From positions 62,001 through 126,000 of the forward strand of contig CALVAC010000006.1 in NCBI GenBank assembly GCA_944325435.1: 64,000 nt of DNA. The letters are read 5' to 3'. This stretch comes from an uncultured Bacteroidales bacterium (GTDB taxonomy: Bacteria; Bacteroidota; Bacteroidia; Bacteroidales; UBA932). The position numbers were made by a program, and so were the translations under genes. The notes beneath the pieces were generated by a model. That model had not been told where the DNA came from. It did no database searches and saw only the letters and a program-made list of their open reading frames with translations. Of the stretch, positions 44,703 to 64,000 are shown piece by piece; position 1 is the first letter of the stretch; every line of letters begins with the position of its first letter.

Positions 44703-46265
44703 TTACTGATTCGCGAATCTCGGCATAGACCAGGTCTTCGCTGCCCTTACGAGATTTGTTGCAACCGGAGCTGCACCATTCACAGAAGCGGCTGTCACTT
44801 CTGTCCCTGCTTCAGAAGCACCAGAGTCGTCTACCTTTGTCATTACATAAGGGAAGCGAGGCACCCTATAGTCGAAGCTGAGGGAATACCCTCCTCTTCC
44901 AGCCGAATCCTTATAGTCGATGAGGTCGGCGGCATACCACATTCCAAGCAGATTGACAGTATATGTGCTGCCATTGCTGTCGGTTATCTCGATCGGTTCA
45001 GTTGTCACAGTCACTTTGCCATCAGCATCCATCTCTGCTGTCGCTATCGGATATGAATCAGAAATCGTATTGAAAATCTTATCATTCGGATCATCATCGT
45101 AGAAAGCGAAGAAGCCGATGTCAGCCCTTCCATACTGCTTATAGTCAAACGGGACATCAATATCCGCCAGATCCACTCTCCAGAGACCAGGTTCAGCCAT
45201 GAATGCGAAAGCCTGCGTAGTCTTGTCATACCGTGCATGGAACGGAGGAAAATCGATATCATTATTGGCCTCTTTGCCGTTCGGACCTTCCCAGCCATCT
45301 ACAAGATACTGGTAGTTGTTCTCATCTGCGGTGATCTCGACGATATAATAATATCCCGGAGTGCTTCCGTCGGCAATCCGCCATGTACCGATCCATTTCT
45401 CGTATTCAGAGACAGCCGTCTCTTCCTGAGGAGTGAAAGGTTCTGACATGAAATAAAGCCCTGTACCTTTCCCGTCAAGGTTCACACCGAGCATCACTGC
45501 ATACCACTGGTCATCGGAATCGAGGACACCGAGACTGCCCTCCATATTGTAATCAAGCGCGTAATCAATCCACATTGCATTGTCGCCCATGGAATTTCTG
45601 AAATCAATCTCATCCTGTACGACGGCTATCTCCGCCTTTGCGAATGCTGCTATATCGTTGTTATAGTCATCCTTGAATTCACTGACGGACACCACTGCCG
45701 GGAGATAATAGTCATCACCTCCCTTTATCGTGAATGAAAGGATATCAGCATACATTTTGGATCCATCTTCAAGGGTCATATCATCACGGCGCAGATATGT
45801 GCATGACCAGTTCTCGTTTTCTATCCATTTGCCATCCGGGAGCGGAGTCGTGAACTTCTCCTCATCGGCGGTGCCGACGACCTGTCCATCAGGAAGAAGC
45901 CCAGTGACAATCACCCTGTAGTCCGTGCGTTCTGTCAGATTGTTGAAAGTCACGGACTGGTTGCCGGCCTTGAGCAGGGACTGGTAGTCCGTGACACCTG
46001 CCAGCTCATCGGCAATCGCCTTTTCGATATCCGATTCCGTATCCTTGGTGACGAAACAGTACCATGTGTCGGAGCCGCCTGTGCAGGTGACACTTACAGT
46101 GACGGATTCTGCAGTCAATGTCTCATCATTGACCGAAACACTGAACCTTGTATTGCCTGTCTGCTCACCGTCATTCCCATCAGACTCGGCCTTGTTGCAG
46201 GCAGACAACCCCGCCGCTACCATTGACAGGGCAGCCACATACCAAAAAATCTTTTTTGTTTTCAT
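44703..46265 (-). CDS. Fn3/lipocalin-like exported lipoprotein
   Basis: The product has 520 residues with a lipoprotein signal (GLSACNKAE, Cys23). An Fn3-type domain covers about 40-140. A middle domain leads to KGTGLYFMSEPFTPQEE (about 280) and a lipocalin-like barrel opening with YEKWIGTWRIADG. It shares these marks, and an ending of VPRFPYVMTKV, with the protein at 58375-59745 (ATGLYAASEPFTPEE, RWLGDWRISG, VPQFPFTMTR); they are paralogues. The function is unknown. It is the last gene of the long minus-strand peptidase locus. Confidence 0.65.
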   Translation of the reverse strand: MKTKKIFWYVAALSMVAAGLSACNKAESDGNDGEQTGNTRFSVSVNDETLTAESVTVSVTCTGGSDTWYCFVTKDTESDIEKAIADELAGVTDYQSLLKAGNQSVTFNNLTERTDYRVIVTGLLPDGQVVGTADEEKFTTPLPDGKWIENENWSCTYLRRDDMTLEDGSKMYADILSFTIKGGDDYYLPAVVSVSEFKDDYNNDIAAFAKAEIAVVQDEIDFRNSMGDNAMWIDYALDYNMEGSLGVLDSDDQWYAVMLGVNLDGKGTGLYFMSEPFTPQEETAVSEYEKWIGTWRIADGSTPGYYYIVEITADENNYQYLVDGWEGPNGKEANNDIDFPPFHARYDKTTQAFAFMAEPGLWRVDLADIDVPFDYKQYGRADIGFFAFYDDDPNDKIFNTISDSYPIATAEMDADGKVTVTTEPIEITDSNGSTYTVNLLGMWYAADLIDYKDSAGRGGYSLSFDYRVPRFPYVMTKVDDSGASEAGTEVTAASVNGAAPVATNLVRAAKTWSMPRFANQ

Positions 46266-46307
46266 TGTCGTTTATTCTAAAATTATCAGTTATTCATTTT
46301 CTCTTGT

Positions 46308-46352
46308 CAGATCCTTCGCTCCGTTCAGGATGACAGTCCAGCGAAGAATCTG
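46308..46352. repeat. Copy 2 of the dispersed repeat, folded into a 13-base inverted repeat
   Basis: On the minus strand CTGTCATCCTGAACGGAGCG runs on to AAGGATCTG, matching the copy at 16994. Here the outer ends form an inverted repeat: CAGATCCTTCGCT (46308-46320) and AGCGAAGAATCTG (46340-46352), 12 of 13 pairs, with a 19-base loop. It fills the gap between two lipoprotein genes and may act as a transcript-end or processing hairpin. Confidence 0.65.
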
Positions 46353-46361
46353 CTGGCTCCA

Positions 46362-46835
46362 TTACAGTACCGGCAGGGCAGGGACATCCCCGCTCCTGAC
46401 AGGAGGCACTGCCTCATCAATCACATCCGCAGGAATCTCCGCCCTCTCGTACACGCTCACCTCCCCTGAAGACAGGGCGGTGAGGGTAAGGGAGCTGCCG
46501 GAGACAGAGACGGAATATCCGAGACCTCTGGTGCCTCCGAGCCTTGTGCCATCCGAATAGCGTCCCGTCATGACATTGTCTCCGGAGACAGTGTATGTCC
46601 CTTCATAATACCAGTACCTGCCCAGACCTGTCCCGACCTTCTGGTACAGGACGAAAGTCCCGGATGTGAACGAAGCATAGACATCGATATCCAGTCCCTG
46701 CTCTCCGATCAGGTCCCCTGTCTCCACAAGATGCCACTGGCCTGATATGTCCACTCCGGTATCATTCTTCCCGGAACATGCAGACAACCCCGCTATGAGG
46801 ACCGCTGCCGCCAGCATATATAAAATCCTTTTCAT
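46362..46835 (-). CDS. Small lipocalin-like lipoprotein
   Basis: The product has 157 residues with lipoprotein signal AGLSACSGKN (Cys20). The mature part opens DISGQWHLVETGDLIGEQ and continues as an eight-stranded beta pattern (YASFTSGTFVLYQKVG, YWYYEGTYTVSGDNVMTGRY), as in lipocalin-like Bacteroidota proteins. No ligand can be named. It follows the S8 protease gene by 61 bases. Confidence 0.65.
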   Translation of the reverse strand: MKRILYMLAAAVLIAGLSACSGKNDTGVDISGQWHLVETGDLIGEQGLDIDVYASFTSGTFVLYQKVGTGLGRYWYYEGTYTVSGDNVMTGRYSDGTRLGGTRGLGYSVSVSGSSLTLTALSSGEVSVYERAEIPADVIDEAVPPVRSGDVPALPVL

Positions 46836-46896
46836 TTCCTTCAGTTTAATCCAGTCGTCTGACTGTCAGTACATAATCCCTGTTTCAAGTTCCCGG

Positions 46897-48948
46897 CTAC
46901 AGCCATCCGCCGTTCCCGTTTCCGATACCTCTGGCGATGACTGAAATCTGTTTGGATATCGGCATTCCTCCCATAGACGATCCTCCACCTGCAGTGTCAC
47001 CGCCTGCTATCGCCCTGATGGTCAACTTTGCAGACCCGGCCTTCTCCGGCTGGATAAGGAGCGAACCGCCCTTGATTACAGGCTTCACAAGAAGTCCGAG
47101 AGCCTCATAGTCGTCATCGGATATGGTCACATCCTCATAGTAGGTCAGGTTCTCCGAACCTCCGCCGAACACAGAATCAAGGTTGATGCGTTGTGACCTG
47201 CCGACTTCCGCCACAAGACAAGGAGTCCCCTCTATCTGCATCAGGAGCCTCCAGGCATCTATCGTCCCTGTGCCCATATTGCCCATATACGGGGAGAGCA
47301 GGAGGTCTCCCATGGATGCTGTTCCGCTGGCTGAAGTTACCAGAGTCTCCTTAGACCCTACCAGACGGCTGTCGATATCGTTTACAGAGGTAAGCAACAT
47401 GGAGACGAACTGGTCACGCGTGAATGTGACCCCGAGATCGAGGGCATAGGAAAGCCCGAGGGCGGCAACCCCCGAGACATGAGGACAGGCCATCGATGTT
47501 CCTTGCATATATCCGTAGTCAGTCACTGTCTGAATGGTCTCCCCGCCATCGGTATAGCTTATCGACTCTGTAGGCATAGTCGAGAGGACACATCCTGCCT
47601 CGCTGTCGAACATTCCTCCTGTATAGAGTTCCCCTCCCGGAGCGGCTATGTTGCAGCCAGGGCCGTAGTTGGTATAATATGCAGGCAGGTTGTCCGAAGC
47701 CGTCGCTGTCACCGAGATGCAGTCTCTGGCCGCTCCCGGATAGGAAGCCCTGTCCCAGCTGTCGTTGCCTGAAGCGAAAATCGCTATGTTGCCACCCGTC
47801 ATTGCCGCACAGTTTCCTTTGCCATCATTATTGTCGCCGTTGATGAAATAATTGATGGCGGCAGCCTCGACATTGACACTGGCGAACTCATCATCGCTTG
47901 TTATGGAATCGTCCTGGTTGCCCCATGAGCACTGGATGATGCAGGCGCCGTTGTCTGCCGCATACCTTATGGCATCTGCGCTGGATGACTGGGATGCAGA
48001 GTTGCCCTGATTGAATATCTGGAGAGACATTATCCGCACCCCGCTGTCAGGGGAGCCATTTCCTCCGGCCACTCCGCATACCCCGATGCCGTTGTTGTTC
48101 ACGGCTGCGACCGTTCCTGCCACATGCGTACCATGTCCGTTGTTGCCTTCAGAACCCCAGTCTATCTCGCCGGTTTTGTTGACAAAATTGTATCCGTAGA
48201 TGTCATCCACATATCCGTTCCCATCATCATCCACCCCGGGAGCGCCGTTAAGCTCGTCCTTATTGACCCACATGTTCTGCGCAAGGTCAGGATGGTCATA
48301 CTGCACACCGAGGTCGAGCACCGCCACAACCACCTCCGGACGGCCTGTCTCGAGCCGCCACGCATCGGCGACATTGATGTCGGCCCCGCGGACAGCGGTC
48401 GGGGCAATCTCCGCGCTCCCATCATTGTAATAGTGCCACTGGGCCCCCAGCTGAGGGTCATCGAAAGAGCTGAAATCCGCAGAAGCGGACACAGCCCTTG
48501 TCACTGGATAGGACCGTCCGTCGGACGCCAGCTTCAGCCTGTTGTTGAACTGCACCCTGCCGACTTCCTCATATCCGGCCACCACGTTTGCAAGGCTGTC
48601 GAGGTCGGCGGACTCGCTGAAACGCAGCTCATACCAGCACGCGAGATCAGCTTCAGGAGTACCGGCCTTGGTCACCGCGGCAGTCAGACCTGTAAAGACA
48701 GGCTCTATTTGGATTCCTGACTCCCGGAGTCTCTGTTCAAGGCTGAAATACTGCGACAGGTCACTGAGACGCACTATAAGCGACCCTTCCACAGGGTCGG
48801 TCTGCCTGTTTATAATCTTTGCCGACGGCCCTGCGGCTTCAACGCCGGCAGACTCCCCGAGCGGCTCAACGCTGCACGACACCGCCAGGACACACAGCCC
48901 GGCTGCGGCAGTTGATATCATTTTTCTAACCATCATATCCATCATCAA
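46897..48948 (-). CDS. Subtilisin-like (S8) serine protease, lipoprotein
   Basis: The product has 683 residues; the start overlaps the upstream stop by four bases (a start at 48936 is possible). The lipoprotein signal is LAVSCSVEPLG (Cys25). A fervidolysin-like propeptide covers about 55-145 (SLIVRLSDLSQYFSLEQRL). The catalytic triad is Asp212 (VAVLDLGVQYDHPDL), His272 (NGHGTHVAGTV) and Ser485 (GTSMACPHVSG), with oxyanion Asn394 (ASGND). The last 130 residues form a beta-sandwich (about 570-683) without the T9SS sorting motif. It should be a surface or periplasmic endoprotease that feeds peptides to the SusC/D pair in the same run. Confidence 0.9.
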   Translation of the reverse strand: MMMDMMVRKMISTAAAGLCVLAVSCSVEPLGESAGVEAAGPSAKIINRQTDPVEGSLIVRLSDLSQYFSLEQRLRESGIQIEPVFTGLTAAVTKAGTPEADLACWYELRFSESADLDSLANVVAGYEEVGRVQFNNRLKLASDGRSYPVTRAVSASADFSSFDDPQLGAQWHYYNDGSAEIAPTAVRGADINVADAWRLETGRPEVVVAVLDLGVQYDHPDLAQNMWVNKDELNGAPGVDDDGNGYVDDIYGYNFVNKTGEIDWGSEGNNGHGTHVAGTVAAVNNNGIGVCGVAGGNGSPDSGVRIMSLQIFNQGNSASQSSSADAIRYAADNGACIIQCSWGNQDDSITSDDEFASVNVEAAAINYFINGDNNDGKGNCAAMTGGNIAIFASGNDSWDRASYPGAARDCISVTATASDNLPAYYTNYGPGCNIAAPGGELYTGGMFDSEAGCVLSTMPTESISYTDGGETIQTVTDYGYMQGTSMACPHVSGVAALGLSYALDLGVTFTRDQFVSMLLTSVNDIDSRLVGSKETLVTSASGTASMGDLLLSPYMGNMGTGTIDAWRLLMQIEGTPCLVAEVGRSQRINLDSVFGGGSENLTYYEDVTISDDDYEALGLLVKPVIKGGSLLIQPEKAGSAKLTIRAIAGGDTAGGGSSMGGMPISKQISVIARGIGNGNGGWL

Positions 48949-49787
48949 TAAGAGAATGTGTCATTGTAGTCACCTGCATCCTTGCCGAGATAGCCGTAAG
49001 TGAACGGGAAAGTATATGTCCTTCTGCGGTTTTCGAATGTAGGCGTGCCGGATACGGTCGCAATAACCTCCACATCGGCTCCATCTTCAGAGGAATAATA
49101 CATGTCTCCGGTCGTATAGATTCTGGCATCCAGATTGAGCGGAGCTATGCCGTTCTCCTCATTGTCCTCATCTACGGTGAACCTGATATATTTCCCGTTC
49201 CCCCAAGGGTCGATCCTGTAGGCATCCAGGGTGCGGGAATATTCCAGGTCTACCGTTCTGGATATCACGTCTTCCCCCCAGTCGACAAGATCCAGCGCTG
49301 CAGCTCCGCAGATGTACCTTCCTGTACGGAGCACCTCGTAGTCCTCCCTGACTATCGTCACATCTATCCTCGGATATGTCGTCTGCTGTATATACTGCTG
49401 AGTATATGCCTCATCCACATAAAGGGACAGCCGGTACTCCTTGAAATCCTCAATCTTGTCCGTAAAATAGACTGTCACTTCCGATGTCATCTCTCCACGC
49501 GGGAAAAAGGCATACTCCGGGACATCGAAAGCCTCCGGGAATGCGCAGGAAAAGTGCAGAGGCACATTTTCATCCTCGCGCGGAGCATCATCCCTCTCAA
49601 GACGGAACGTGATCTCATATACATCGAGAGGAAGGGACCGGTAAGGTTCTGTCTCCTCGAAATAGACATTCACACCAAGATAGTTGGACTCATCACCCGG
49701 AGTATATTTCCCGTCCCCGCAGGATACTGCAAGGAGGGATACCGTTCCCAGGTAAAGAACATATCTGCTAAAATTCATTTTCTTCAT
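48945..49787 (-). CDS. Exported lipoprotein with DUF4843-like beta domains
   Basis: The product has 280 residues with lipoprotein signal LLAVSCGDGK (Cys23). It contains an Ig-like domain (about 45-135: LPLDVYEITFRLERDD ... VTVYFTDKIEDFKEYRLSLY), recalling the DUF4843-type protein that often follows SusD, and a second beta domain ending GDYNDTFSY. It lies 19 bases after SusD and overlaps the protease gene by four bases. It is probably a surface accessory of this SusC/D pair. Confidence 0.6.
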   Translation of the reverse strand: MKKMNFSRYVLYLGTVSLLAVSCGDGKYTPGDESNYLGVNVYFEETEPYRSLPLDVYEITFRLERDDAPREDENVPLHFSCAFPEAFDVPEYAFFPRGEMTSEVTVYFTDKIEDFKEYRLSLYVDEAYTQQYIQQTTYPRIDVTIVREDYEVLRTGRYICGAAALDLVDWGEDVISRTVDLEYSRTLDAYRIDPWGNGKYIRFTVDEDNEENGIAPLNLDARIYTTGDMYYSSEDGADVEVIATVSGTPTFENRRRTYTFPFTYGYLGKDAGDYNDTFSY

Positions 49788-49806
49788 TGTCTGTCTTCAG
49801 TTTATG

Positions 49807-51456
49807 TCAGTCTGTGACTCCATCCCTGAGGTCAGAGCCGTCTCCAGATACCGGAGGTGTGCCTGCCTTGTTGGACGATGCAGGAATGGCCTTGTTTGAA
49901 TTGGTCTCCCTCTGAGGGAAACGCAGCAGGAGATACGGGTCATCAGGAGCGATGTTGAAAGCGAAGGCTGCAGGCCAGTTGGTCATAGTCGAGCTTCCGT
50001 GCGTCCTGACCACAGGCTTGGCAAGCCTCATTATATCGGACATTGAGAAACCCTCTCCCCACAGTTCGATGCGACGCTGCTTCCATATCTCGTCCTGCAG
50101 GTCCTCTGCAGAAGCGGCCTCACATGTATATGAAGGGTCACGGTATGTCCTGATGAAATCTTCAAGCACCTGTTTCGCAGTGCTCTCCTGTCCGCTCATT
50201 GCCAAGCCCTCGGCACGGATGAGTATCATCTCCTCGGCCCTCATTATGCACCAGTCGCTCGCGTTGTCGGTACTGCCTATACCCTGTTTCTGCCCGAACT
50301 TCACGGTAGTGTACTCCTTGAACGCCACCTTGACATTAGGGATGGTCATAGTGGATATCGCCCTGCCTGTCCTTCCGTTCCACTCTATCGTGGACAGCAG
50401 AGGGGAGTCGAGCGACTCGTTCACCCACCAGCCCTTGCGGACATCCGTAGATGGGATCAGGTCATAGAGCATAGAGCTGATACGCTTGTACATACCGGAT
50501 ATTGCCGTATAGCCTGAGCCTGTGAAAGAGCAAAGATGCGATGGCCAGCTTGCAAAGCCGGCGGCATCATCCGACTCTATCAGGGAGCCCCAGATCCAGC
50601 TGTGGTCGTTGATGTCGCAGAAAGCAGGTGTGCTCACCTCATCTATGGTATATGGAGTATAGCCCTCGAGTGCCCTCTGTGCGTCTTCTGCCGCCTCCTT
50701 GAACATTCCCATATTGAGATAGGCTCTCGCCCTGAGTCCGTATGCCACATTCCGGTCCATCCTTGTCTTGTCCGGACGGCTGTAATCCGCGAGATAGTCT
50801 ATCGCTTTGGTGAGATCCCCTATTATAATGTCATATATAGCCTCCACAGTAGCCCTCGGATTCTCCATATAATTGGTGTTGATATCCAGTATAGGGACAC
50901 ATTCCGCATCTCTGCTGTCCTGATACCTGAAGGCATAGTACGGCGCCAGGCCGAGATAGTCAAATGCCCTGACCGCCAGAGCCTGTCCAACGGAATGACG
51001 CTGCTCGGTAGAGGCGGTGTCCATATCCACTCCCTCGAATCCTTCCAGAACGGCGTTGCACAGGGCTATCTGGTTGTAGAAAAACGAATAGCGGATATAG
51101 CATACGATATAGTTGTCGTTCCTGTCGGTATAGTCGTAGCTGCTCGTGAACCAGTTGTAGTTGCTGTTGTCACACACCATATCAGGACCGTTGCAGTCCT
51201 GGAACATACATACGGCCGGATATCCGAAATCATTGTGGATTGTACCGTTGTTGTATGTGCTCATCGCCCTTGCCGTGAAAGAATATACTCCCGCGAGGTC
51301 GGCATCGGACCTGTCTGGGATGGAAGACACCGCCTCGGTCACCTGCTCTGAAGTGATGGCGAAGCCCTCCGGATCCATTTCATCCATTTTGGAACACGAC
51401 ACTGTCGCCAGAACGGCCGCCAACAGAGATATCTTGTATATTTTCATTTTCTCCAT
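49807..51456 (-). CDS. SusD/RagB-family lipoprotein of the peptidase locus
   Basis: The product has 549 residues (start 51456, or 51447). The lipoprotein signal is TVSCSKMDE. Family marks are LAVRAFDYLGLAPYYAFRYQ (about 165), AYLNMGMFKEAAEDAQRAL (TPR), MRAEEMILIRAEGLAMSG (about 403) and the C-terminal WKQRRIELWGEGFSMSDIMR. RagB-like relatives bind peptides, which would suit the two proteases in the run. It lies three bases after SusC. Confidence 0.93.
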   Translation of the reverse strand: MEKMKIYKISLLAAVLATVSCSKMDEMDPEGFAITSEQVTEAVSSIPDRSDADLAGVYSFTARAMSTYNNGTIHNDFGYPAVCMFQDCNGPDMVCDNSNYNWFTSSYDYTDRNDNYIVCYIRYSFFYNQIALCNAVLEGFEGVDMDTASTEQRHSVGQALAVRAFDYLGLAPYYAFRYQDSRDAECVPILDINTNYMENPRATVEAIYDIIIGDLTKAIDYLADYSRPDKTRMDRNVAYGLRARAYLNMGMFKEAAEDAQRALEGYTPYTIDEVSTPAFCDINDHSWIWGSLIESDDAAGFASWPSHLCSFTGSGYTAISGMYKRISSMLYDLIPSTDVRKGWWVNESLDSPLLSTIEWNGRTGRAISTMTIPNVKVAFKEYTTVKFGQKQGIGSTDNASDWCIMRAEEMILIRAEGLAMSGQESTAKQVLEDFIRTYRDPSYTCEAASAEDLQDEIWKQRRIELWGEGFSMSDIMRLAKPVVRTHGSSTMTNWPAAFAFNIAPDDPYLLLRFPQRETNSNKAIPASSNKAGTPPVSGDGSDLRDGVTD

Positions 51457-51459
51457 TCT

Positions 51460-54400
51460 TTAAAAAGTGATTGTCAGACCTCCGGATATGCTACGCATTG
51501 CAGAATAGGTAAAGTTGCCGTTGTTGTTCGAACCTCCCGTAGCACCGAAACTCATCCTCGGATCAAGGCCCTTGCGGGCAGAGAATACCCACAGATTGTC
51601 TCCTGTAGCATATACCCTGAGGCTTGCTATGTGCAGTTTCTGCACCCATTTCTCAGGGAAGGTGTAGCCAAGGGTGATATTGTTGATGCTCAGATAGTCC
51701 GAACTCGTCAGGAATCTGTCGCTGTCGCTCTCGTACGTGTTGTCGGAGGCATCGAGACGCGGAATATCCGTGTCCGGATTTGCCGGGGACCATGAATTCA
51801 GAATATCCTTGTGCCAGTTGGTACCGGCCATCTGTGAACAGCCCGAATGCATCAGCTGCTGGTATGTGCCATCATACAGACGGCCACCGAGCTGGTAAGA
51901 GAACTGGGCGGAAAAATCGAAACCGTAGAAATTGAGGGTCGTCCCGAATCCTCCATAGACCTTTGCCATAGTGTCTCCGCAGTCAGCAAGAGCGGCAAGG
52001 TTATAGTCGGTGGTAGTGCTCCAGTCATCATTGTCAGGATCCATATAATAGAGTGCCTGCCCGGTGTCCGGATCGATGCCTGCATACTTCCTGTAATATG
52101 CCTGGTACATGGAACCTCCTATCTTGAGGATAGAGGATGAGCTTCTTATGCCTGTATCCTTCACATCATCGTCAAGGTCGAGTATCCTGTTCGTGACATG
52201 GGTGAGGTTGAAGTTGACTGTCCAGTCGAGATGGCTCGTAGAAATGAGTGTTCCGTACAGTTCAAGCTCTACTCCGTGGTTCAGTATGCTTCCCACATTG
52301 GTAGGGATGGAGCCTGCGGTGATGCCGGAAGAACTCGGGACCTGCTTGTTGTAAAGCAGGTCAACTGTCTTGCGGTTGAAATATTCTACGGTACCGCCGA
52401 GCCTGTCCCCGAAGAACGAGAAGTCGAACCCGGTATTGAAAGCATACGAAGTCTCCCACGTGATGTCCTCGTTACCCTTGTAATACATAGTCTTGGCATA
52501 TTCCCCGGTCGTCTCGGAATAAGTCACAGTGTACTGGTCGGTGTACGGCTGGTAGTTGGAAGCCCCGCTTGAATACAGCAGGTTGTCGTTACCCTGCACA
52601 CCCCAGCTCGCCTTGAACTTGAGCATGTCCAGCCAGTCCCTCGTACCTGCCATAAAGTTCTCATCGGAAAGGAGCCACGCCCCACCAATGCTGCCGAAGT
52701 CTCCCCAGCGGTGTCCGGGAGCGAACCGTGATGAACCGTCCCGCCTGTAAGATGCGCTCAGGAAATACCTGTCGCCATAGCTGTACTGCACACGGGAGAG
52801 GATACCCTCCGTCATATAGTTGTTGGTATATGAGGAGACATTCCTGTTTGTCACTCCGCCGGCATTGCCCAGTTCCCCGATGAACGGATTATAGAGATGG
52901 TCGTTCGATCCGTTCATCATCTGTATCTTGAGCCTGTACTGCTCATATCCCACCAGAGCCTCGATACTGTGGTTCTTGATGGTAGTCTTGTATGTGGCCA
53001 GATACTGGCAGTTGATGCCGGACACCCTCTGGTGCGTGACAGATGCCGACCCGTCGAACTCCTCGTTGCTGCTTCCCCAGCGGCTCGACAGATAGTTCAC
53101 CCTGTCATTGGACTCCGTGAGGGAGTAGTTGACGCTGAAGGTAAGCCCCTCTATCGGAGTGATATGCGCATACCACTGGCCGTTGAATGTGGTGTTGATA
53201 TCAGTGGAACGGTCATTCTCGATCACCGCACCGGCGCGGGAGTTGCCCATGAACGGCCTCTGCGCATTGGTGGAGTTGGCACCGTTGTCATACAGCCGTG
53301 TACCTGTTGCCGACTCGTACATAATGTTGCCGTACATATCCCTGACATACATAGGATAGATAGGAGCCACCATATTGGCCGCATAGAACAGGTTCAGCGA
53401 AGAATTGGACGACTCATCTGCATCTCCGTAATATGTAGCCTGGCTATAGCTCATGTTAGTCCCGACACGGAGCCATTTCTTGGCCTGGTAGTCCACCTTT
53501 CCGCGCCCGCTGTAACGGGTGAATCCGGAATTGCTGATGATTCCGTCATCATCCAGATACCCGAAACTGGCATAGTAGTTCAGCTTCTCGGTACTGCCGG
53601 ACACGGTCGCGTTGTACTCCTGACGGAGGTTGCCTTTGCCGAAAATCTCGTCATACCAGTTGTCCGGGATATAGTAATATTCCCCATCGCTGTATCCGAG
53701 GGTCGCGTTAGGGTTGAGCCTGAAGTTGGTACCTATGAGCTTCTCCCCTGCAGGGACAGTGAACACCTGATAGCCCAGACCTCCGTTGGAGGTGTTGAGC
53801 AGGGTGTTGTCGGCATACCTGTATGCCTCTGAAGAAGTTGCGCCAGCATAGATCTGGGAGTTGTACAGAGACCTGTACATCAACTCATAATATTGTCCCG
53901 GACTGTCAATCACATCATAATTCGGGACCATCCTGCGGTTGGAGCCCCACTTGGCATCAAGGGTCACCCTTGCTTCTCCGGTCTTGCCTTTCTTTGTGGT
54001 AATAAGGACAACTCCGTTGGCTCCCCTCGCACCGTAGATGGCATTGGCCGCCGCATCCTTCAGGACAGTCATAGACTCGATGTCCGCAGGGTTGATGTTC
54101 TCGATGGCACCATCATACGGCACACCATCAAGTATATAGAGAGGGTCATTGGATGCCGACATGGACCCCATTCCACGGATACGGATAGTGGCTCCGGAAC
54201 CAGGACGGCCGCTCGACTGCACGACCTGCACTCCGGACATCTGACCCGAAAGGGCTCCGGTAACATTGGCCACCGCCCTTTCCGCAAGTTTTTCAGAATC
54301 CACTGAAGCCGCAGAACCCGTAAAAGACGACCTTGTGGCGGTACCGTATGCCACAACAATTGTCTCTTCCAGCATCTCCGTATCCGGATGCAGCACTACA

Positions 54401-54678: not shown

Positions 54679-54736
54679 TCTGTCAAGAAGCAATACGCTT
54701 TCAAAAATTAAACATGACGACCTTCACAGGCCCGCA

Positions 54737-55678: not shown

Positions 55679-55690
55679 TTTTCAACTGTT

Positions 55691-58363
55691 CTATATTCTT
55701 ACAAAAGTGCCGGAAGCCACATCCTTGCCATCCTTGCGGAGAACCAGGCTGTATGTGCCCGGAGCGATGCCAGAAAGATCGACTTCATGAGGCTGGTCCA
55801 GAGAGATGGCGGCAGAAGCCGAATAGACCGTACTCCCGGAAGCCGTGTTCACAATCACATCATAGACTCCGGATGCAGCTGTCCTCACCTTCACGAAATC
55901 TCTTGCAGGGTTAGGATATATGTCCAGAGCCACATCCCCGTCTGCAGCCGGAGCCGACCCGATTACAGAGACAGTGATGCCGCCTGCGGCCGCTGCCCCC
56001 TTTGGATCGGTCGCGGTAATTGCTATCCTCACGCTTCCCTGTTTGAGGGCAGTGAACTCGACAAGCCCGTTCTCCTGCTCGGTATATGACACAATACCGT
56101 CATCAGTCATTGTGTAGGTAAAGGTAAAACTGTCATTGTCCTTGTCATAGAAGCAGTCGTACGGATTGAACATATATGTCGACCCTACGCTTTCGAGAGC
56201 TATCTCCTTGCCCTGTACGAACTCAGGTTCGTTGTTCGGAAGAATGGTATAAGGTATCTTGAGTGTCGTCACTCCTGTCTCCTCTCCCGAGTTGTCACGG
56301 GCAGTGATGGAACATTCATACTCTCCCGGATCGGAGTACACCGCATTGATAGTCAGCTGCACCGATCTCTCGGAAAGGGACACGAGCTCGACAATGTCCT
56401 CGCGCACTCCGCCGAACTCCCTTGTCAGAGGCTGGCCATCCGGCTCGGTGATGGTGAATGTCCTGACGACAGTGCCGCTTGCCTTGAGCACAATATCGCC
56501 TGTCTGGTCAGGGGTGATTACCGGAGCTCTGTTTGCCTTCGTGGTGATTTTCACCGGAGCAGGGATAGCAGATGTCTCGCCGATGATGTTGGCGGAAACG
56601 ACCGTACACCAATAGTCAGTGTTGAACTTGAGTCCATCTATGGTCATCGTACGGCGGTCATCTGAGGCATAGTCGAGATTCTCTATCCTGAACTCGAGCC
56701 TGTCGGCATTCCCGAGATTGTCTGCTGTGAACTCCCTGTCGTCATAATAGACATAGAAATAGCTTGCATTTTCAGGCTCCTCCACAGTGAGGGTGATGGT
56801 ATTTCCCTCGCTCTTCGCATCGAATCCAGTCACAGGGGAAGCAGCCGGAGTCTCCTGGGCAGCAGCAAGCGCAGCCACGGCATCCAGCATCCCGCTTCCG
56901 AGCATACCGGAACGGTTCATATTGTATTCATATATGGATGGATCCGCCGTATTGACAAGCAGTTTGAAAAGGTTGTCCGCCGTGAAGCCGTCCTCCGGAG
57001 TCTTGGTGGACAGGACAAGGGCGGCGACACCTGTAACGTGAGGACACGCCATAGAAGTACCTCTGTTATATCCATATTGATCGGACAGGGCAAGGCTGAG
57101 CACTTGTCCGTAATCTCCATTAATGAACTCATCCCCACCCGGAGCACAGATGTCAACCCAGTCGCCATAGTTGGTATAGTAGGTATATTTGCCTGTCGGA
57201 CCGACAGCCGCAACGGCAAGTGTCTTATCATACTGGGCCGGATAACCGGTCTCGGAGGCGAAGTTGCCGGCAGCAAAGACAACAAGACCGCCTTTCATAG
57301 GACCGACCTGATTGCCGTTTTCATCCATTCCGGCATTCTCGACAAAATAATCGATTGCCGTCTTGTCCACTTCTGTCAGAGTCGCATCGGATGACTGGTA
57401 TCCCCAGCTGTTGTTGATTATGCATGCTCCGTTTTCGGCAGCATACTGAAATGCAAGATATGTATCGCCTCCGTACTGTTCTCCTTCCTCCAGAAGCTGA
57501 AGGGCCATCAACCTCACCCCTTTCTCGGGATATTTTCCGCCTGCCACTCCACAGACACCTATACTGTTATTGTTGACTGCGGCTATCGTACCGGCCACAT
57601 GGGTACCATGTGCTTCGGGATGTATAGTACTGTTGCCCCTGACGAAATTGTATCCGTACACATCATCTACATAGCCGTTTCCATCATCATCGACACCGGG
57701 CTCTCCATTCAATTCCGCTTCATTCACCCACATGTTGCCGTTGAGATCCTCATGGCTGTATTCTACACCCTGGTCAGCGACCGCGACAATTACATCGCTG
57801 CTGCCGAAAACTCCGTAAGTATCCCATGCTTCCTGCAGTTTGATGTCAATGCCAGGAGTGAACCCATACTGTCCGGTATTATGATAATGCCACTGCCGTT
57901 CATATCCCACATCGTTCATCTCTACTGACATCTTCTTGATTTTCATCACCGGTTCCGCAAACTCTATCCCCGGAGCTGCGGCAGCATTGCCGGCAGCCTT
58001 GGATACAGGGACACTTTCATCATAACTTATCCTGAACCATCTGTGCAGTCCCGCAGCACGCTGACGGCTCTCGAACTTGCCTCCTATCATAAAGGCTGTC
58101 TTCACTCCTGTAACATTGAGTCCCTCAATCCGGAGCAGCGCGACCCCGTCCTCATTGAGTTCACCTTTGGCATCTGCATATTCGAGAAGCCTGTCCGCAA
58201 GTTCCTCAGATACCTTTACGGACATGACTCCGGGCACTGTGCCCTTGTCAGAGGCCGTCGCTGCCGGGATCTCAGTCTGAGGTTCCAGCTGCTCATCGAC
58301 ACTGCACGCCCAGAGCACCGATGCAAGGGCGACAGGCAATATGATCCTATATGTTTTCATCAT
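55691..58363 (-). CDS. S8 serine protease with Fn3/cadherin-like domains and a T9SS type A sorting domain
   Basis: The product has 890 residues. The N-terminus looks like a lipoprotein signal (ASVLWACSVDE, Cys20). The triad is Asp197 (VAVADQGVEYSHEDL), His252 (AHGTHVAGTI) and Ser437 (GTSMACPHVTG), with oxyanion Asn367 (AAGN). An Fn3 domain covers about 515-610, two cadherin/Ig-like domains about 620-800, and the C-terminal 80 residues form a type A sorting domain (LDIYPNPARDFVKVRT ... GTYSLVLRKDGK). T9SS would place it at the cell surface. Having both a lipobox and a T9SS domain is unusual. It is paralogous to the protease at 46897. Confidence 0.9.
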   Translation of the reverse strand: MMKTYRIILPVALASVLWACSVDEQLEPQTEIPAATASDKGTVPGVMSVKVSEELADRLLEYADAKGELNEDGVALLRIEGLNVTGVKTAFMIGGKFESRQRAAGLHRWFRISYDESVPVSKAAGNAAAAPGIEFAEPVMKIKKMSVEMNDVGYERQWHYHNTGQYGFTPGIDIKLQEAWDTYGVFGSSDVIVAVADQGVEYSHEDLNGNMWVNEAELNGEPGVDDDGNGYVDDVYGYNFVRGNSTIHPEAHGTHVAGTIAAVNNNSIGVCGVAGGKYPEKGVRLMALQLLEEGEQYGGDTYLAFQYAAENGACIINNSWGYQSSDATLTEVDKTAIDYFVENAGMDENGNQVGPMKGGLVVFAAGNFASETGYPAQYDKTLAVAAVGPTGKYTYYTNYGDWVDICAPGGDEFINGDYGQVLSLALSDQYGYNRGTSMACPHVTGVAALVLSTKTPEDGFTADNLFKLLVNTADPSIYEYNMNRSGMLGSGMLDAVAALAAAQETPAASPVTGFDAKSEGNTITLTVEEPENASYFYVYYDDREFTADNLGNADRLEFRIENLDYASDDRRTMTIDGLKFNTDYWCTVVSANIIGETSAIPAPVKITTKANRAPVITPDQTGDIVLKASGTVVRTFTITEPDGQPLTREFGGVREDIVELVSLSERSVQLTINAVYSDPGEYECSITARDNSGEETGVTTLKIPYTILPNNEPEFVQGKEIALESVGSTYMFNPYDCFYDKDNDSFTFTYTMTDDGIVSYTEQENGLVEFTALKQGSVRIAITATDPKGAAAAGGITVSVIGSAPAADGDVALDIYPNPARDFVKVRTAASGVYDVIVNTASGSTVYSASAAISLDQPHEVDLSGIAPGTYSLVLRKDGKDVASGTFVRI

Positions 58364-58374
58364 ATCTGTTCAAA

Positions 58375-59745
58375 TTATTCTGTTACTGATGTTGATGATG
58401 CCCTCCTTGTCATCGTGAACGGGAACTGAGGCACCTGGGTGAATGCTGTCACATTGGAAGTCAGGTTGTTGATGAATCCGATATACTGCATCTCCGTAGT
58501 CCCGAACAGTTCTCCGCCCTCCTGGGCAAGACCTTCGTTGGCAGTGACCGTAGCCGAATTGGTACCATTCAGCACAGCCGTGGCTATCGTATAGTCTCCA
58601 GCCATATAAGTGAGGCTGTTACCAGATGTCTTCGTAGCATAGAAATACAGGGAGTATGAGACACCGTCTACATACCGGTCACCCGCGTATGACGAAGTGA
58701 ACACCATATTTCCGCTCGCCGGATCGAATGAAGCCTGTACACCAGGGAGTTCCACTCCATTCAGCCCGTTCTGATATCCATAGATGATATAGGCCTGGTC
58801 AGGTACGAGATAGCTGATCGTGATGTCATACGAAATCGGCTGGTCCACGCCTTCGCCATCCTCGTATGTGCCGGAAATTCTCCAGTCACCGAGCCATCTT
58901 CCATACCCATCGCTGTATTCCACCTCTTCCGGAGTGAACGGTTCCGATGCCGCATACAGGCCGGTAGCCTTGAATTTCTCATCGACGCCTATGGCAAGGC
59001 CCACATACTCACCCTCATCCCCTGTCTCGAGGATATAGGCTGCAGTCGTATAATATACATATTCCGAACGGTCCACAATCCAGCCGGCTTCCTCCTGCTC
59101 AGCGAAATAGGCCTCACGCTCGGCAATGACCTCTTCGGCGCAGGCAGCTATGCCCTTGGCCTGGTAGTCGGCTGCAGATACGACAGCGGCGAAATAGCCT
59201 TCCTCGTTCCCGTAGGAAGTCACCTGGATGACATCGCCGTATCCTGAATTGTCGGTAGCGGCCTGCTTGCCCTGATATGTGACAATCCAGTCAGGATTCG
59301 GTTCGTAGATCACCGAACCCTCCACCGTATTGAAATATACCGATGCCGGAGTACCGTACACATTATAATCCTCATCCAGTCCGCACACCACAAGCCTGTA
59401 CATGGCGGAAGACTGCAGTCCCGTGCATTTCACGGAAGCGGAAGAGCCGGATGTCAGCACTTCGGAAGGAGCCGCACCCGATTCCTTCAACGCAGCCACG
59501 GCATTCTCGATAGCCATCGGCTCGCCCTGGGTGAAATCCCTGTAGCAGAAAGCATAATAGGTGACATCCTCAGTCCCGTTGTGGCTGACAAGAGCCGTGA
59601 CATCATTCGCGCCCACCGTCTCTATCCTGACATCGAAAGTCAGGCTGTCGCGGTCAGCGACAGCGGCCTCCTCCTGACAGCCGGCAAGCAGCACTGCACC
59701 TGCGGCCAGTGCGGCCAGCGCAGTCTCGCGATACTTGATCTTCAT
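58375..59745 (-). CDS. Fn3/lipocalin-like exported lipoprotein, paralogue of the 44703 gene
   Basis: The start at 59745 (MKIKYRETALAALAAGAVLL) gives a lipoprotein signal (LLAGCQEE, Cys23) and 456 residues; the ATG at 59769 overlaps the upstream stop. An Fn3-like domain (about 35-140) is followed by a Tyr/Glu-rich domain, ATGLYAASEPFTPEE (about 265), RWLGDWRISG and a lipocalin-like barrel ending VPQFPFTMTR. The function is unknown. Its place beside the proteases suggests a surface substrate-binding or inhibitor role, which is speculative. Confidence 0.65.
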   Translation of the reverse strand: MKIKYRETALAALAAGAVLLAGCQEEAAVADRDSLTFDVRIETVGANDVTALVSHNGTEDVTYYAFCYRDFTQGEPMAIENAVAALKESGAAPSEVLTSGSSASVKCTGLQSSAMYRLVVCGLDEDYNVYGTPASVYFNTVEGSVIYEPNPDWIVTYQGKQAATDNSGYGDVIQVTSYGNEEGYFAAVVSAADYQAKGIAACAEEVIAEREAYFAEQEEAGWIVDRSEYVYYTTAAYILETGDEGEYVGLAIGVDEKFKATGLYAASEPFTPEEVEYSDGYGRWLGDWRISGTYEDGEGVDQPISYDITISYLVPDQAYIIYGYQNGLNGVELPGVQASFDPASGNMVFTSSYAGDRYVDGVSYSLYFYATKTSGNSLTYMAGDYTIATAVLNGTNSATVTANEGLAQEGGELFGTTEMQYIGFINNLTSNVTAFTQVPQFPFTMTRRASSTSVTE

Positions 59746-59765
59746 AATATTACAATAATACATTA

Positions 59766-60890
59766 TCATTTATATTCGTATGCGACAGTCCCGCCAATCT
59801 CGCACTTTGCCGCATTGTTTACATAGAAACTTCCTCCATCCTCTGCGGTGACGATAAGCACCAGATGACAGTTGTCCACATCCCATCCATCCTCTACCGG
59901 AATGGAGAATGTATAGCCTGCCTCCTCGCCTGCATTGACTGTCCCGAGAGAGACCCCGGTATAGTCCGCATTCCTGCCGCTCCCAGTGTACTGGGCATAA
60001 CGCAGACAGTCGTTGTGTATATTGAAATCTATATTCCCGGTAGCGCCGCTGTTAAGTTGCGATCCGTAGATATCATCCTCGAGCAACCATGCGGCCACCT
60101 TGTATTCTCCTGTCTGGGCAGCCTTGACAGACATTGAGACCAGCACATTGCTGCCGTTGAGGACAGAACTTGCTGCAATCCCTGCCTGTGCAGGACGGCG
60201 GGATGCGGCTTCATTGACAAGACTCCAGTAATTTCTCATGCCGGTATCAATCGATGGATTCCCTCCCACAATTACAAGATTCTCATTATCCAGATCGGCA
60301 CTTACATACGGTGTCACATCGCTGCCATATACGCTCATAAGAGGACCTCCATAATAGGCAGGGTCGTTCCGGGCCACAGAATGGCACTCCACAAGGACAT
60401 AGCTGTTCCTTGCCGGGGACAACGACAGCTGATGCAGGGCAGAAATCGCGAACGGGCACATTGAACAGTCAGTGCTCGTGAACAATATCATCAGCGCCCT
60501 GCGGACGAACGCGGTATTGTCCGGCTCCGGATCCTCAGGAATGGCTGGCATTGAACCGGTCGCAACAATTGTCACCGTCTCCGAACGCTCTCCGTTATAT
60601 TCTGCATAGAAACCGTAGGACCCTTCCGCATCAGTTGCGAATGTCAGACCTGCCGCAGACCCGTCCCCGTTATATACGGCTGCCATATCAGTGACATCTA
60701 TGCCGTCATATTCAACGGTGAATGAAACCGCGTCAAAACCGTTCGGCTCTATCACCGTCTTGTCCGGGACAAGCTTCAGATACTGCGAGACCGTCACTCC
60801 ATCATCCTTGCTGCAAGACAATGAAACAAGGCAACACACAGCCAACATAGAGATGGTCATCACCTTCATAAATCTCGAAAAACTTTTCAT
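59766..60890 (-). CDS. Omp28-like lipoprotein with thioredoxin-like fold
   Basis: The product has 374 residues with lipoprotein signal LVSLSCSKDD (Cys26). An Ig-like domain (about 35-110) precedes an Omp28-type domain with FTSTDCSMCPFAISALHQL (CxxC, about 154-157), as in thioredoxin folds, and then a beta-sandwich (about 245-370). Omp28 of Porphyromonas is a surface protein once proposed as an adhesin. The CSMC motif suggests a redox role, perhaps on substrates or proteases of this locus. It follows the DUF6029 gene by 23 bases. Confidence 0.78.
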   Translation of the reverse strand: MKSFSRFMKVMTISMLAVCCLVSLSCSKDDGVTVSQYLKLVPDKTVIEPNGFDAVSFTVEYDGIDVTDMAAVYNGDGSAAGLTFATDAEGSYGFYAEYNGERSETVTIVATGSMPAIPEDPEPDNTAFVRRALMILFTSTDCSMCPFAISALHQLSLSPARNSYVLVECHSVARNDPAYYGGPLMSVYGSDVTPYVSADLDNENLVIVGGNPSIDTGMRNYWSLVNEAASRRPAQAGIAASSVLNGSNVLVSMSVKAAQTGEYKVAAWLLEDDIYGSQLNSGATGNIDFNIHNDCLRYAQYTGSGRNADYTGVSLGTVNAGEEAGYTFSIPVEDGWDVDNCHLVLIVTAEDGGSFYVNNAAKCEIGGTVAYEYK

Positions 60891-60913
60891 ATACGCTAAA
60901 TATTACATTCCCA

Positions 60914-62539
60914 TCAAAACGCCGTCGTCAGCAGCAGATTCACACCTGTATATGCCGGAGAATATCTGCACACTCCGCCCGAGCAGACATACCCGGCCCT
61001 GTGCCTGCCATAGCTCAGCTGCACTCTCGTGCGGCCTTTGGAATAGCTGACTCCCCCGTCATAGTAATGTACCTTTGTCATCCCGATATTGTACATATCG
61101 CTGACATAGACGCTCCACCTCGGAGCCACGCTGAACTCCACAAGTGCAGCCACCCAGTCACCTTCGCAATGCCCGTCCATCCATTCATCCTCGCTGTTCT
61201 CGCAGAGCAGGTACTGCAGCTCTGCCCTCAGGGACATGTTCCTGTGGAATTTCCACGTTACATCCGCAACGAATATGTCGGATGTGTACAGAAGTTGCTG
61301 GAATCCCTTGCTAGGACTCATCTCCTGTCTCGAGAACAGGAAGATGGTCTTCAGGGACTTGCTCCACTGCCTCTCCACATCAAAATTGACATCGCTCCAC
61401 ATAAGTCCTGTCCTGCCTGTCTGGCTCTGCTCAGGTCTGAGCGTATATGCCCCCGACCAGTTGACGTGGAAGTTCCAGTACCTGTGACGGGCGGACGGAC
61501 TCCTAAGGGAATAGAAGACATCCACCTGGCCCGCCTGCTCTCCTACGGTATTGACCTGATAAGGATTCAAATTGGCAAGCATATAGGTGTACTGCCTTGT
61601 CAATGAAGGCAGATAGTTCATCATATTGCCCGTCCCGCTGCCATACAGGGTAAGGTTCGTACCCATATTGTCCAGCATACGGTATGTCGCCGAAACGCTC
61701 AGAGTCTTCCAGCTGTACAGAGCCTCTGCATAGACGGCAGAACCTTCAGTGGCGACAGAGGTCGTACCGATCATTATGTCCTTGCTTTTCCAGGCATATT
61801 CCCCGGACAGGGACAATGTGTTCCAGTTGAAATTGATTCTCCCGGAAGCCATATTGAGGGATGGGGTGTCGAGCCTGTAGTATGAGTTGAAATCGATGGA
61901 CTCATCCTTGTCCAGAGCCTCATAGCGGTTGACATAGCTGCCCTCGACATTGAGGAAGACAGCATTCCAGCCGAAAATGTCAGCCACGGACACGCTCAGA
62001 TCCGCACCCCTGATCCAGGAACCTGCATAATTGGTGTACAGCCTCGGGCGGCCATACAGTCCCTTGACCGTAAGATAGTTAGAAAGCCTGTAGATACCCC
62101 TGATACCTTCAAGGGAATTGTTCAGCCCAAGCTGCCTGTCCTCATAGCTTCTGAAGACAAGACCGTTGCCGAACTGGTCATAGATATCCCCTGCCCTGAC
62201 CTCGAAACTGTCATCCGTCCACTGCACATATTTCCCTGCGAGGAAGAACTTGCGGACATCCGGCTGCTCCCCCAGCTCATAGCCGTACAGGGCAGGCATA
62301 TAGCCCTCCAGCTGGATCCCGGCGGAGAAACGGCCCAGCGAATAATCCACCTTGAGATAATTGTTGGTGCCGAACCTGTCTTCCGGGCCATCACCGATGG
62401 TCTTGTCATCCACATAATACACCGAGTTCGACTCGAGACTGGCAGAGACCTGTCCCTCCCCCAGCCTCAACTGCGCTCCGGCATAGAATCCGAACGACAG
62501 AAGCCCTGCGACAACCAATGGTATCCGTATAATATCCAT
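60914..62539 (-). CDS. DUF6029-type outer-membrane-associated protein
   Basis: The product has 541 residues with a signal peptide cut near FYAGAQ. The sequence is rich in aromatic alternating strands throughout (VSASLESNSVYYVDDKTIGD, NNYLKVDYSLGRFSAGIQLE, VRAGDIYDQFGNGLVFRSYE, ending NLLLTTAF), which fits a large outer-membrane barrel of the DUF6029 type. In T9SS organisms this family is often next to Omp28-like genes, as here. The role is unknown. Confidence 0.7.
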   Translation of the reverse strand: MDIIRIPLVVAGLLSFGFYAGAQLRLGEGQVSASLESNSVYYVDDKTIGDGPEDRFGTNNYLKVDYSLGRFSAGIQLEGYMPALYGYELGEQPDVRKFFLAGKYVQWTDDSFEVRAGDIYDQFGNGLVFRSYEDRQLGLNNSLEGIRGIYRLSNYLTVKGLYGRPRLYTNYAGSWIRGADLSVSVADIFGWNAVFLNVEGSYVNRYEALDKDESIDFNSYYRLDTPSLNMASGRINFNWNTLSLSGEYAWKSKDIMIGTTSVATEGSAVYAEALYSWKTLSVSATYRMLDNMGTNLTLYGSGTGNMMNYLPSLTRQYTYMLANLNPYQVNTVGEQAGQVDVFYSLRSPSARHRYWNFHVNWSGAYTLRPEQSQTGRTGLMWSDVNFDVERQWSKSLKTIFLFSRQEMSPSKGFQQLLYTSDIFVADVTWKFHRNMSLRAELQYLLCENSEDEWMDGHCEGDWVAALVEFSVAPRWSVYVSDMYNIGMTKVHYYDGGVSYSKGRTRVQLSYGRHRAGYVCSGGVCRYSPAYTGVNLLLTTAF

Positions 62540-62562
62540 AACCTTCCGACAGACAGAGAATC

Positions 62563-62596
62563 GGCAGAGAAGATGCCCTGCAGCATCCGCTCTGCC
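62563..62596. other. Two-tier hairpin in the gap upstream of the DUF6029 gene
   Basis: GGCAGAG/CTCTGCC (62563-62569, 62590-62596) encloses GATGC/GCATC (62572-62576, 62583-62587) with loop CCTGCA. It lies 24 bases upstream of the DUF6029 start on the minus strand, has no T-run, and could be a processing or attenuation element between the first and second visible genes of the run. The rest of the 111-base gap is A/T-rich. Confidence 0.5.
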
Positions 62597-62650
62597 CTCT
62601 CCTTTAAAACATTAAAATCTTACAGTATGCCATCTATATTACCGTATCTT

Positions 62651-64000
62651 CTATTTCTGAGGTGACTCAACCAGAGACCTGAGCTCCTCAACATCTCCGA
62701 GAACCTGGCCTTTCTCCGGCAGATTAGGTCCATACTCCTCGTTAGGGGAACTTATATAGAAGAATTTCCTTCCTGATGCCCCCCATACATCTGCATCATC
62801 CTGAGCCATTACTATAAGAGTATTCTTGGCTCCCCACACCTGCATATTAGTAAACATATCAGCATCGTAATATGCCTTCAGGACGCAAATGTATGCAGTA
62901 GTCCCATCAAGATAATTCCCTTCCGGTATGTCGATCCACTGAGAGTCTCCTATTTGAGTAATGAACTGATCATCAGTCATTTCCATATAGGTATCCCATT
63001 CACCAATCATGGCATCTTCACTCTCGTAATTGCCTCCTTCCATCACATAATAACGGCAGCGTACAGCAGTTTCTGCAAGCGTCACTTTGAATGCAGCTAT
63101 ATAATACGCACCCTCATAAGCCGGCTTGGACATATCAGCGAATATGTTGGCTTCGTAGACTGCATCGGCATCATAATACCCGATAAGCTCTACAGAAGCT
63201 GTAGGACCATCCGCAGAATCAGACATTGTCTTGAAAGTGCTTGTCACTACATAATTATTATCGGCCGGTGTTCCATCCGCGTGAACAGGCACGAGCACAA
63301 AGGTATAATCCGTACCCGGCGTCAGGTTTTCTACCAGCAGGAACTGCTGTATGCCGTTGTAGAGAATCGATTGTACAGCATCCTGGATGGTATAGTTCGC
63401 ATTTCCATTCTCCTGCTGCAATTTGACATGTTCTGCAAGCATATCCGAAACGGCATCCTGCGCTTTTTGAGCTGAATACTCAGCTGTAGGGAAGGCAAAT
63501 GCCCCCCAATATGTACCATACATTTCCTCGTTTTCAGGTGTCACATCAACCACAACTGTTGTAGATGTGATTGTCTGGAAATCTATTGTTGCGTTGAATT
63601 CTTCAGGAGTATAGCCATGCTTTGTTGTAAACACCCACATCTGGCAGTCGCTCTGACGGCCGAGACCCGGTTCGTATGCAAACGCGAAATAGTAGTATTT
63701 GGTATCGGATGTCAGATCATCCATAGTCAGTTCATAACCGCCATTATACAGTCCCATACCCTGATCCAGCATATGTTTTACGCCGTCAATATATGCGTTC
63801 GCAGCCTTGTTGGCCTCATCCGTGTTATCGACCTTAACCGCAACACCCGGCTCTTCCGGATCATCGACATTGACATCAGGATAGTTTGTTGCAGGCTGAC
63901 AAAGGAATATATAATTGTCGTTCGTATTCGGTTTTACAGTGAAATGAGCCGAATATGAAGATATATCGGTCACTGACATCTCGAATGTCATCTCATCCTT
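62651..64000 (-). CDS. Exported Fn3-like repeat protein, 5' end beyond the window
   Basis: The frame is open to the window edge (GAG, GAT, AAG codons precede the ATG at 63991), so the N-terminus is missing. The visible 450 residues hold two Fn3-type units (FEMSVTDISSYSAHFTVKPN ... YFAFAYEPGLG; then FNATIDFQTITSTTVVVDVT ... FVLVPVHADG). A last beta domain (about 255-446) ends FFYISSPNEEYGPNLPEKGQ. It resembles the Fn3 parts of the two lipoproteins at 44703 and 58375. It is the most upstream visible gene of the peptidase locus. Confidence 0.6.
   Translation of the reverse strand, partial: KDEMTFEMSVTDISSYSAHFTVKPNTNDNYIFLCQPATNYPDVNVDDPEEPGVAVKVDNTDEANKAANAYIDGVKHMLDQGMGLYNGGYELTMDDLTSDTKYYYFAFAYEPGLGRQSDCQMWVFTTKHGYTPEEFNATIDFQTITSTTVVVDVTPENEEMYGTYWGAFAFPTAEYSAQKAQDAVSDMLAEHVKLQQENGNANYTIQDAVQSILYNGIQQFLLVENLTPGTDYTFVLVPVHADGTPADNNYVVTSTFKTMSDSADGPTASVELIGYYDADAVYEANIFADMSKPAYEGAYYIAAFKVTLAETAVRCRYYVMEGGNYESEDAMIGEWDTYMEMTDDQFITQIGDSQWIDIPEGNYLDGTTAYICVLKAYYDADMFTNMQVWGAKNTLIVMAQDDADVWGASGRKFFYISSPNEEYGPNLPEKGQVLGDVEELRSLVESPQK

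Follow-up and report, generated by a model that had tools for sequence, protein, structure and literature searches.

The window analyzed here is a 64,000-nucleotide stretch of the genome of an uncultured Bacteroidales bacterium (GCA_944325435.1, contig CALVAC010000006.1, positions 62,001–126,000). Annotation of its open reading frames with sequence profiles revealed a single run of genes on the minus strand, from about position 64000 down to 44703, in which an S8 peptidase with a C-terminal domain (CTD) of the type IX secretion system (T9SS) is followed by a barrel of the PorV/PorQ family and a SusC/SusD importer. In the order of transcription, the run encodes a large lipoprotein, a DUF6029 barrel, an Omp28 protein, a lipoprotein, the S8 peptidase with the CTD, the PorV/PorQ-family barrel, SusC, SusD, a 280-residue lipoprotein, a second S8 peptidase, a small lipoprotein and a large lipoprotein. 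Between positions 62651 and 44703, eight of the eleven intergenic gaps are shorter than 60 bp, and the remaining three measure 61, 96 and 111 bp. The genes named in a preliminary description of this DNA are all present on the one strand, and its account of gaps mostly under 60 bases holds. What it missed is that every CTD of this genome has a PorV-like barrel of its own as partner, despite the lack of a T9SS.

The S8 peptidase (55691–58363) contains a lipobox at residue 20, an S8_N domain (residues 45–164), a catalytic domain (residues 189–475) and the CTD (residues 815–890; 55694–55921). The CTD scores above the cut-offs of TIGR04183 (29.2 bits) and PF18962 (30.6 bits, domain alone), and is thus a T9SS type A CTD (Por_Secre_tail). 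Its AlphaFold model, with a predicted local distance difference test (pLDDT) score of 83.5, superposes on the CTD of mirolase (8QB1) in a structure search with a Z-score of 9.7 and a root-mean-square deviation of 1.5. Further structural matches are the CTDs of PorZ, RemZ, NucA and RemA, as well as Bacteroides DUF3244 proteins; the background of immunoglobulin-like (Ig) folds lies below these matches, at Z-scores of about 7.5–7.9. The CTD family profile also matches solved T9SS CTDs. The PNP and GxY fold motifs are conserved in the CTD alignment, and the penultimate residue is lysine in 49 and arginine in four of 53 sequences (arginine in the window copy, lysine in its relatives).

The catalytic Asp, His, Asn and Ser residues occupy invariant alignment columns in all 49 paired S8 proteins compared, as expected of S8 subtilases. 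A lipobox, rather than the ordinary non-lipoprotein Sec signal expected of T9SS type A cargo, is found in 50 of 51 paired S8 proteins and in both S8-CTD proteins of the source genome. In the window protein, the lipobox cysteine is followed by SVDEQL with two acidic residues, which matches the lipobox-plus-acidic export signal, and the protease is predicted from these features to be a surface-exposed lipoprotein. The preliminary description had spoken of lipoprotein proteases, and the CTD protease and the other proteases are indeed all lipoproteins.

Pfam DUF3244 is also matched by 20 of 38 CTDs, and the top structural matches of the window CTD include the Bacteroides DUF3244 proteins BT_1867, BT_3571 and BVU_0276. 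Bacteroides species do not possess a T9SS. Given this overlap, DUF3244 proteins that stand alone may act as docking domains similar to the CTD.

The PorV-like gene (54737–55678) starts 12 bp after the stop codon of the S8 gene. Its product scores 133 bits against NF033709, the model of the PorV/PorQ family (curated cut-off 90), and remains below the equivalog cut-offs of PorV proper (82 versus 250) and PorQ proper (56 versus 220). The profile of the PorV-like family matches Flavobacterium johnsoniae PorV (6H3I) with an E-value of 6.5e-38, and all 38 relatives tested match the PorV family with E-values up to 0.001. The barrel is about 313 residues long and lacks roughly residues 252–320 of F. 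johnsoniae PorV, a segment of about 70 residues. Weak matches of the family to the FadL-type transporters TodX and TbuX were also found, as was a weak match of one member to BamG. Directly downstream, the adjacent genes for SusC (51460–54693; TIGR04056, E 2.2e-237), a RagA-type TonB-dependent importer, and SusD (49807–51456; PF14322 and PF07980), a RagB-type surface lipoprotein, form a complete SusC/SusD importer.

The closest relatives of the window S8 protein, at 93–94% protein identity, come from an uncultured Bacteroidales metagenome-assembled genome (MAG) and from Candidatus Cryptobacteroides intestinavium, which suggests that the source genome belongs to Cryptobacteroides. Profile searches of 121 genomes of this genus, of which 53 are at least 90% complete, found the SprA/Sov translocon in none, whereas the identical search was positive for each of 16 other families of the order. 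The PorU sortase did not exceed the cut-off in any of 25 genus genomes (14 of the 16 other families were positive); the sole weak match in the genus, in G002, falls on the CTD protein of that genome. The motor component GldM/PorM was likewise found in none of the 25 genomes and in 15 of the 16 other families. The core genes of the T9SS have thus been lost in this genus, while the order's other families nearly all keep them. Surface cleavage by way of the T9SS, as proposed in the preliminary description, therefore cannot hold for this genome; of its "T9SS protease" the T9SS-type domain stands, while the pathway itself is missing.

In profile searches, the source genome contains exactly two T9SS CTDs and two PorV-family genes; the gap between each CTD gene and the PorV-family gene directly behind it is 12 bp. 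The second pair belongs to a SusC-SusD-Mx1 metallopeptidase-DUF4302-S8-PorV-like locus on contig C2. The genome has three S8 genes, all of them within these two SusC/D loci. For 60 of the 83 CTD matches across the 121 genomes, a PorV-family gene follows on the same strand within 400 bp, and a further eight have one within 5 kb. CTD and PorV-like genes co-occur in 60 genomes, with PorV-like genes only in 17, CTDs only in two and neither in 42 (Fisher p 4e-16). According to a 2024 paper (PMC11285876, citing Kulkarni et al. 2017), CTD proteins are not predicted in species devoid of T9SS genes. The genus is an exception to this statement: it has no T9SS, and about half of its genomes sampled carry CTDs, most of which adjoin a PorV-like barrel.

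The flanks of 60 regions were surveyed, with genes labeled by profiles built from the proteins of the window and of locus L004. An S8 gene is directly upstream of 53 of 64 PorV-like genes, with a median gap of 5 bp and with overlaps of −4 common. The commonest layout is SusC-SusD-lipoprotein-(one or two genes)-S8-PorV-like. SusC or SusD occurs within seven genes upstream or three genes downstream of 33 of the 53 pairs, compared with a chance expectation of about 20% based on the roughly 40 SusC genes in the genome (binomial p 2e-11). The link between S8 proteases and SusC/D that the preliminary description had put forward thus recurs both in the second locus of the source genome and across the genus, so that the refuting condition named there, a lack of such linkage elsewhere, does not apply.

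Several individual loci vary this arrangement. Tandem S8-PorV-like-S8-PorV-like arrays, in which each protease keeps its own barrel, are present in L052 and L070. An S8 lipoprotein with a CTD at L008:10001-12622 has no adjoining PorV-like gene and is followed by a polyphosphate kinase-like gene. At G136:C272:4722-5187, two T9SS CTD matches lie close together, apparently in successive frames. Three tandem large lipoproteins of similar architecture (941, 772 and 772 residues; L004:11015-18570) are encoded just downstream of the second S8-PorV-like pair.

The pair is also found outside the genus, in SusC/D loci of another genus of the same family and of another family (L134 and L136), both without SprA. 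It is present as well in one SprA-positive genome (G241, L135), where the S8 protein is again a lipoprotein. Since the pair occurs both with and without SprA, it probably arose while the T9SS was present and outlived its loss.

The divergence of the barrel follows that of the CTD. Mantel correlations of PorV-like distances are 0.585–0.61 with CTD distances, compared with 0.38–0.39 for the catalytic domain and 0.34 for SusC. In a 95-residue sliding scan along the S8 protein, the correlation stayed at 0.22–0.39 until the CTD was entered, and peaked at the CTD. The bootstrap 95% intervals for the differences between CTD and catalytic domain (0.02–0.33) and between CTD and the middle region (0.04–0.29) both exclude zero. 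An effect of gene proximity was considered for the PorV-CTD correlation and found unsupported: the N-terminal and C-terminal halves of the PorV-like protein correlate equally with the CTD (0.53 and 0.535), which argues against simple proximity.

The remainder of the run is made up largely of lipoproteins, all on the minus strand. At its upstream end, a large Fn3-like lipoprotein (62651–64000), which starts outside the window and has 695 residues in full (L003:4651-6738), carries the lipobox SSC followed by KKDEIN, and no Pfam family matches it above cut-off. The run continues beyond the window on contig C6, where this gene is preceded by one for a BACON lipoprotein. Downstream are a DUF6029 outer-membrane barrel (60914–62539; PF19494, E 9.5e-162) and an Omp28-type thioredoxin-fold lipoprotein with a CxxC motif (59766–60890; PF11551, E 1.8e-23). 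These two genes adjoin in the window (59766–62539) and also in L065, L074 and L005, which suggests that they form a conserved pair of a barrel and a thioredoxin-fold lipoprotein. Next to them is a lipoprotein matched by no Pfam family, with acidic residues after its lipobox (58375–59769; QEEAAV). Beyond SusD lie a 280-residue lipoprotein with a lipobox and no Pfam family (48945–49787), the second S8 peptidase, a lipoprotein without a CTD (46897–48948; PF00082, E 2.2e-40), a small, weakly lipocalin-like lipoprotein (46362–46835; PF13648, E 0.008, below cut-off) and, as the final gene, a large lipoprotein with a lipobox and no Pfam family (44703–46265). The Fn3 and lipocalin lipoproteins of the preliminary description are thus present as lipoproteins, while the family labels fall under the Pfam cut-offs (Lipocalin_4, E 0.008; fn3, E 0.46). 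The two S8 genes (46897–48948 and 55691–58363) share stretches of 97 and 78 nucleotides with 78% DNA identity near the catalytic Asp and His; they therefore look like paralogues, of which only one has a CTD and a barrel partner.

No glycosidase family was matched in Pfam scans of the run, in agreement with the preliminary description, and the run does not qualify as a polysaccharide utilization locus. A search for related whole loci returned two close relatives. In the related MAG locus L005, the genes follow one another in the same order from that of the BACON lipoprotein through the second S8 gene, so the arrangement is not due to chance. The Bacteroidetes promoter pattern (TTTG/TAnnTTTG) occurs at two sites in the window, neither of them inside the locus, and an Rfam scan gave no matches.

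Taken together, we consider it reasonably probable that the CTD and its dedicated barrel form a T9SS-derived docking module that was kept after the loss of the T9SS and built into protease-SusC/D loci. The data suggest that the CTD now serves to keep the protease at the cell surface, where it feeds a protein-uptake system. The protease would leave the cytoplasm through Sec as a lipoprotein and then be flipped onto the cell surface, as other Bacteroidota surface lipoproteins are, and its CTD would dock it onto its own PorV-like barrel. Because S8_N separates the catalytic domain from the lipid anchor, removal of this N-terminal prodomain would, judging by domain order, sever the mature enzyme from its lipid. 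Docking through the C-terminus would retain the lipid-freed enzyme on the surface beside SusC/D, and peptides cut there would be captured and imported by this neighboring system, by which the cell may use protein. In solved complexes, the extracellular loops of PorV bind the CTD, a near-invariant lysine contacts PorV and the remaining conserved motifs of the CTD determine its fold (PMC10994853). The CTD of Porphyromonas gingivalis PorZ is uncleaved and binds PorQ, and genes of type B cargo cluster with their PorP/SprF barrel (PMC10202324). In the β-barrel assembly machinery (BAM) of Bacteroidota, the FadL-like barrel BamG holds a surface lipoprotein (PMC12578637). Docking is therefore proposed on the basis of these precedents.

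Several points weigh against this reading. About half of the buried CTD surface faces SprA in the solved T9SS complexes, and the affinity of a CTD for PorV is expected to drop away from SprA (PMC10994853); a stable pair of CTD and barrel would thus need a changed interface. The AlphaFold model of the PorV-like barrel, built from a three-sequence alignment, reaches a pLDDT of only 33. At least two acidic residues at positions +2 to +7 are present in only 28 of the 50 paired S8 lipoproteins. The 17 genus genomes with a PorV-like gene and no detected CTD, and PorV-like barrels without an S8 neighbor in two SprA-less genomes of two other families (G233, L137; G179, L138), show the barrel apart from its proposed partner, and about a third of the pairs have no SusC/D nearby. 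Moreover, the sequences entering the Mantel correlations are related, so co-divergence counts as supporting evidence only.

The pair could instead be a relic of the lost T9SS, with the CTD an inert Ig-like tail and the barrel decaying. The loss of core genes that most relatives in the order keep, together with the modest scores of the window protein and its relatives against the CTD models, would fit such decay. Nevertheless, a relic appears very improbable, since the pairs persist with intact reading frames in about half of the 121 genomes, the fold motifs, the catalytic triad and a basic penultimate residue (53 of 53) are conserved, PorV-like divergence tracks the CTD, and a decaying pair would not have stayed side by side in two SprA-less families. 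The weak matches to TodX, TbuX and BamG allow for a FadL-type channel that carries a hydrophobic product or peptide, does not touch the protease and shares its transcript for metabolic reasons. We regard this as unlikely: the strongest relative of the barrel is PorV and not FadL, all 38 members tested match the PorV family, its pairing is specific to CTD-bearing S8 genes, and its co-divergence is highest with the CTD and not with the catalytic domain or SusC.

A complete but unrecognized T9SS-like translocon, with the PorV-like protein as its normal shuttle, might escape detection in incomplete MAGs, and no flippase for surface lipoproteins is known from this phylum (PMC12578637). Yet SprA, a protein of more than 2300 residues, was found in every other family sampled and in none of the 121 genomes, of which 53 are at least 90% complete; PorU and GldM follow the same pattern, and the cargo has a lipobox, unlike T9SS cargo with its Sec signal, which makes this the most far-fetched explanation. 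It is also quite unlikely that the barrel does more than anchor and, together with the CTD, carries the lipoprotein protease over the outer membrane, or fixes it there, independently of SprA, which would amount to a minimal two-component surface-display system of T9SS descent. Somewhat less doubtful is a role of the proteases in processing, or defending against, surface or host proteins, with SusC/D importing something other than their products. The substrate cannot be read from sequence, and the pairs without SusC/D would suit such a role; the placement of all three S8 genes of the genome in SusC/D loci and the enrichment of SusC/D near the pairs argue for nutrition instead.

If docking of the CTD onto its barrel is confirmed, the CTD-PorV interaction could be studied free of the translocon, and the pair would show how a secretion signal turned into a surface-anchoring domain. 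The locus is also a candidate for protease-coupled protein uptake through SusC/D in a common gut lineage. For annotation, a "T9SS sorting domain" does not imply secretion by the T9SS. Searches of an open-access library turned up no account of such CTD/PorV pairs where the T9SS is missing, which does not prove novelty.

Among known systems, the pair resembles the T9SS type A cargo and PorV shuttle of Porphyromonas and Flavobacterium, with which it shares the type A CTD, its fold motifs, the terminal Lys/Arg and a PorV-family partner. It differs in that SprA, PorU and GldM/PorM are missing, the cargo is a lipoprotein, and each protease has its own adjoining, shorter barrel. PorZ and PorQ in the attachment complex of P. 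gingivalis offer a parallel to the docking proposed here, the CTD being retained and bound by a PorV-like barrel dedicated to it, and the clustering of cargo genes with their barrel has a parallel in type B cargo with PorP/SprF. Both of these need the T9SS for export, in contrast to the type A CTD described here, which is carried by an S8 protease beside SusC/D in a genome without a T9SS. Mirolase, a KLIKK protease of Tannerella forsythia, likewise combines S8 and type A CTD domains, but is T9SS cargo, and PMC11285876 reports neither a lipobox nor a paired barrel for it. BamG-BamH provides an example of a FadL-family barrel that binds a surface lipoprotein via extracellular loops, although that barrel is of a different family and functions in BAM. 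RagAB and other SusC/D loci share the TonB-dependent SusC barrel and the SusD lipoprotein; the run described here adds two S8 proteases and the barrel module, has no glycosidase, and may, like RagAB, import peptides. Thus, the parts are known, and what is new is their combination without the T9SS machine.

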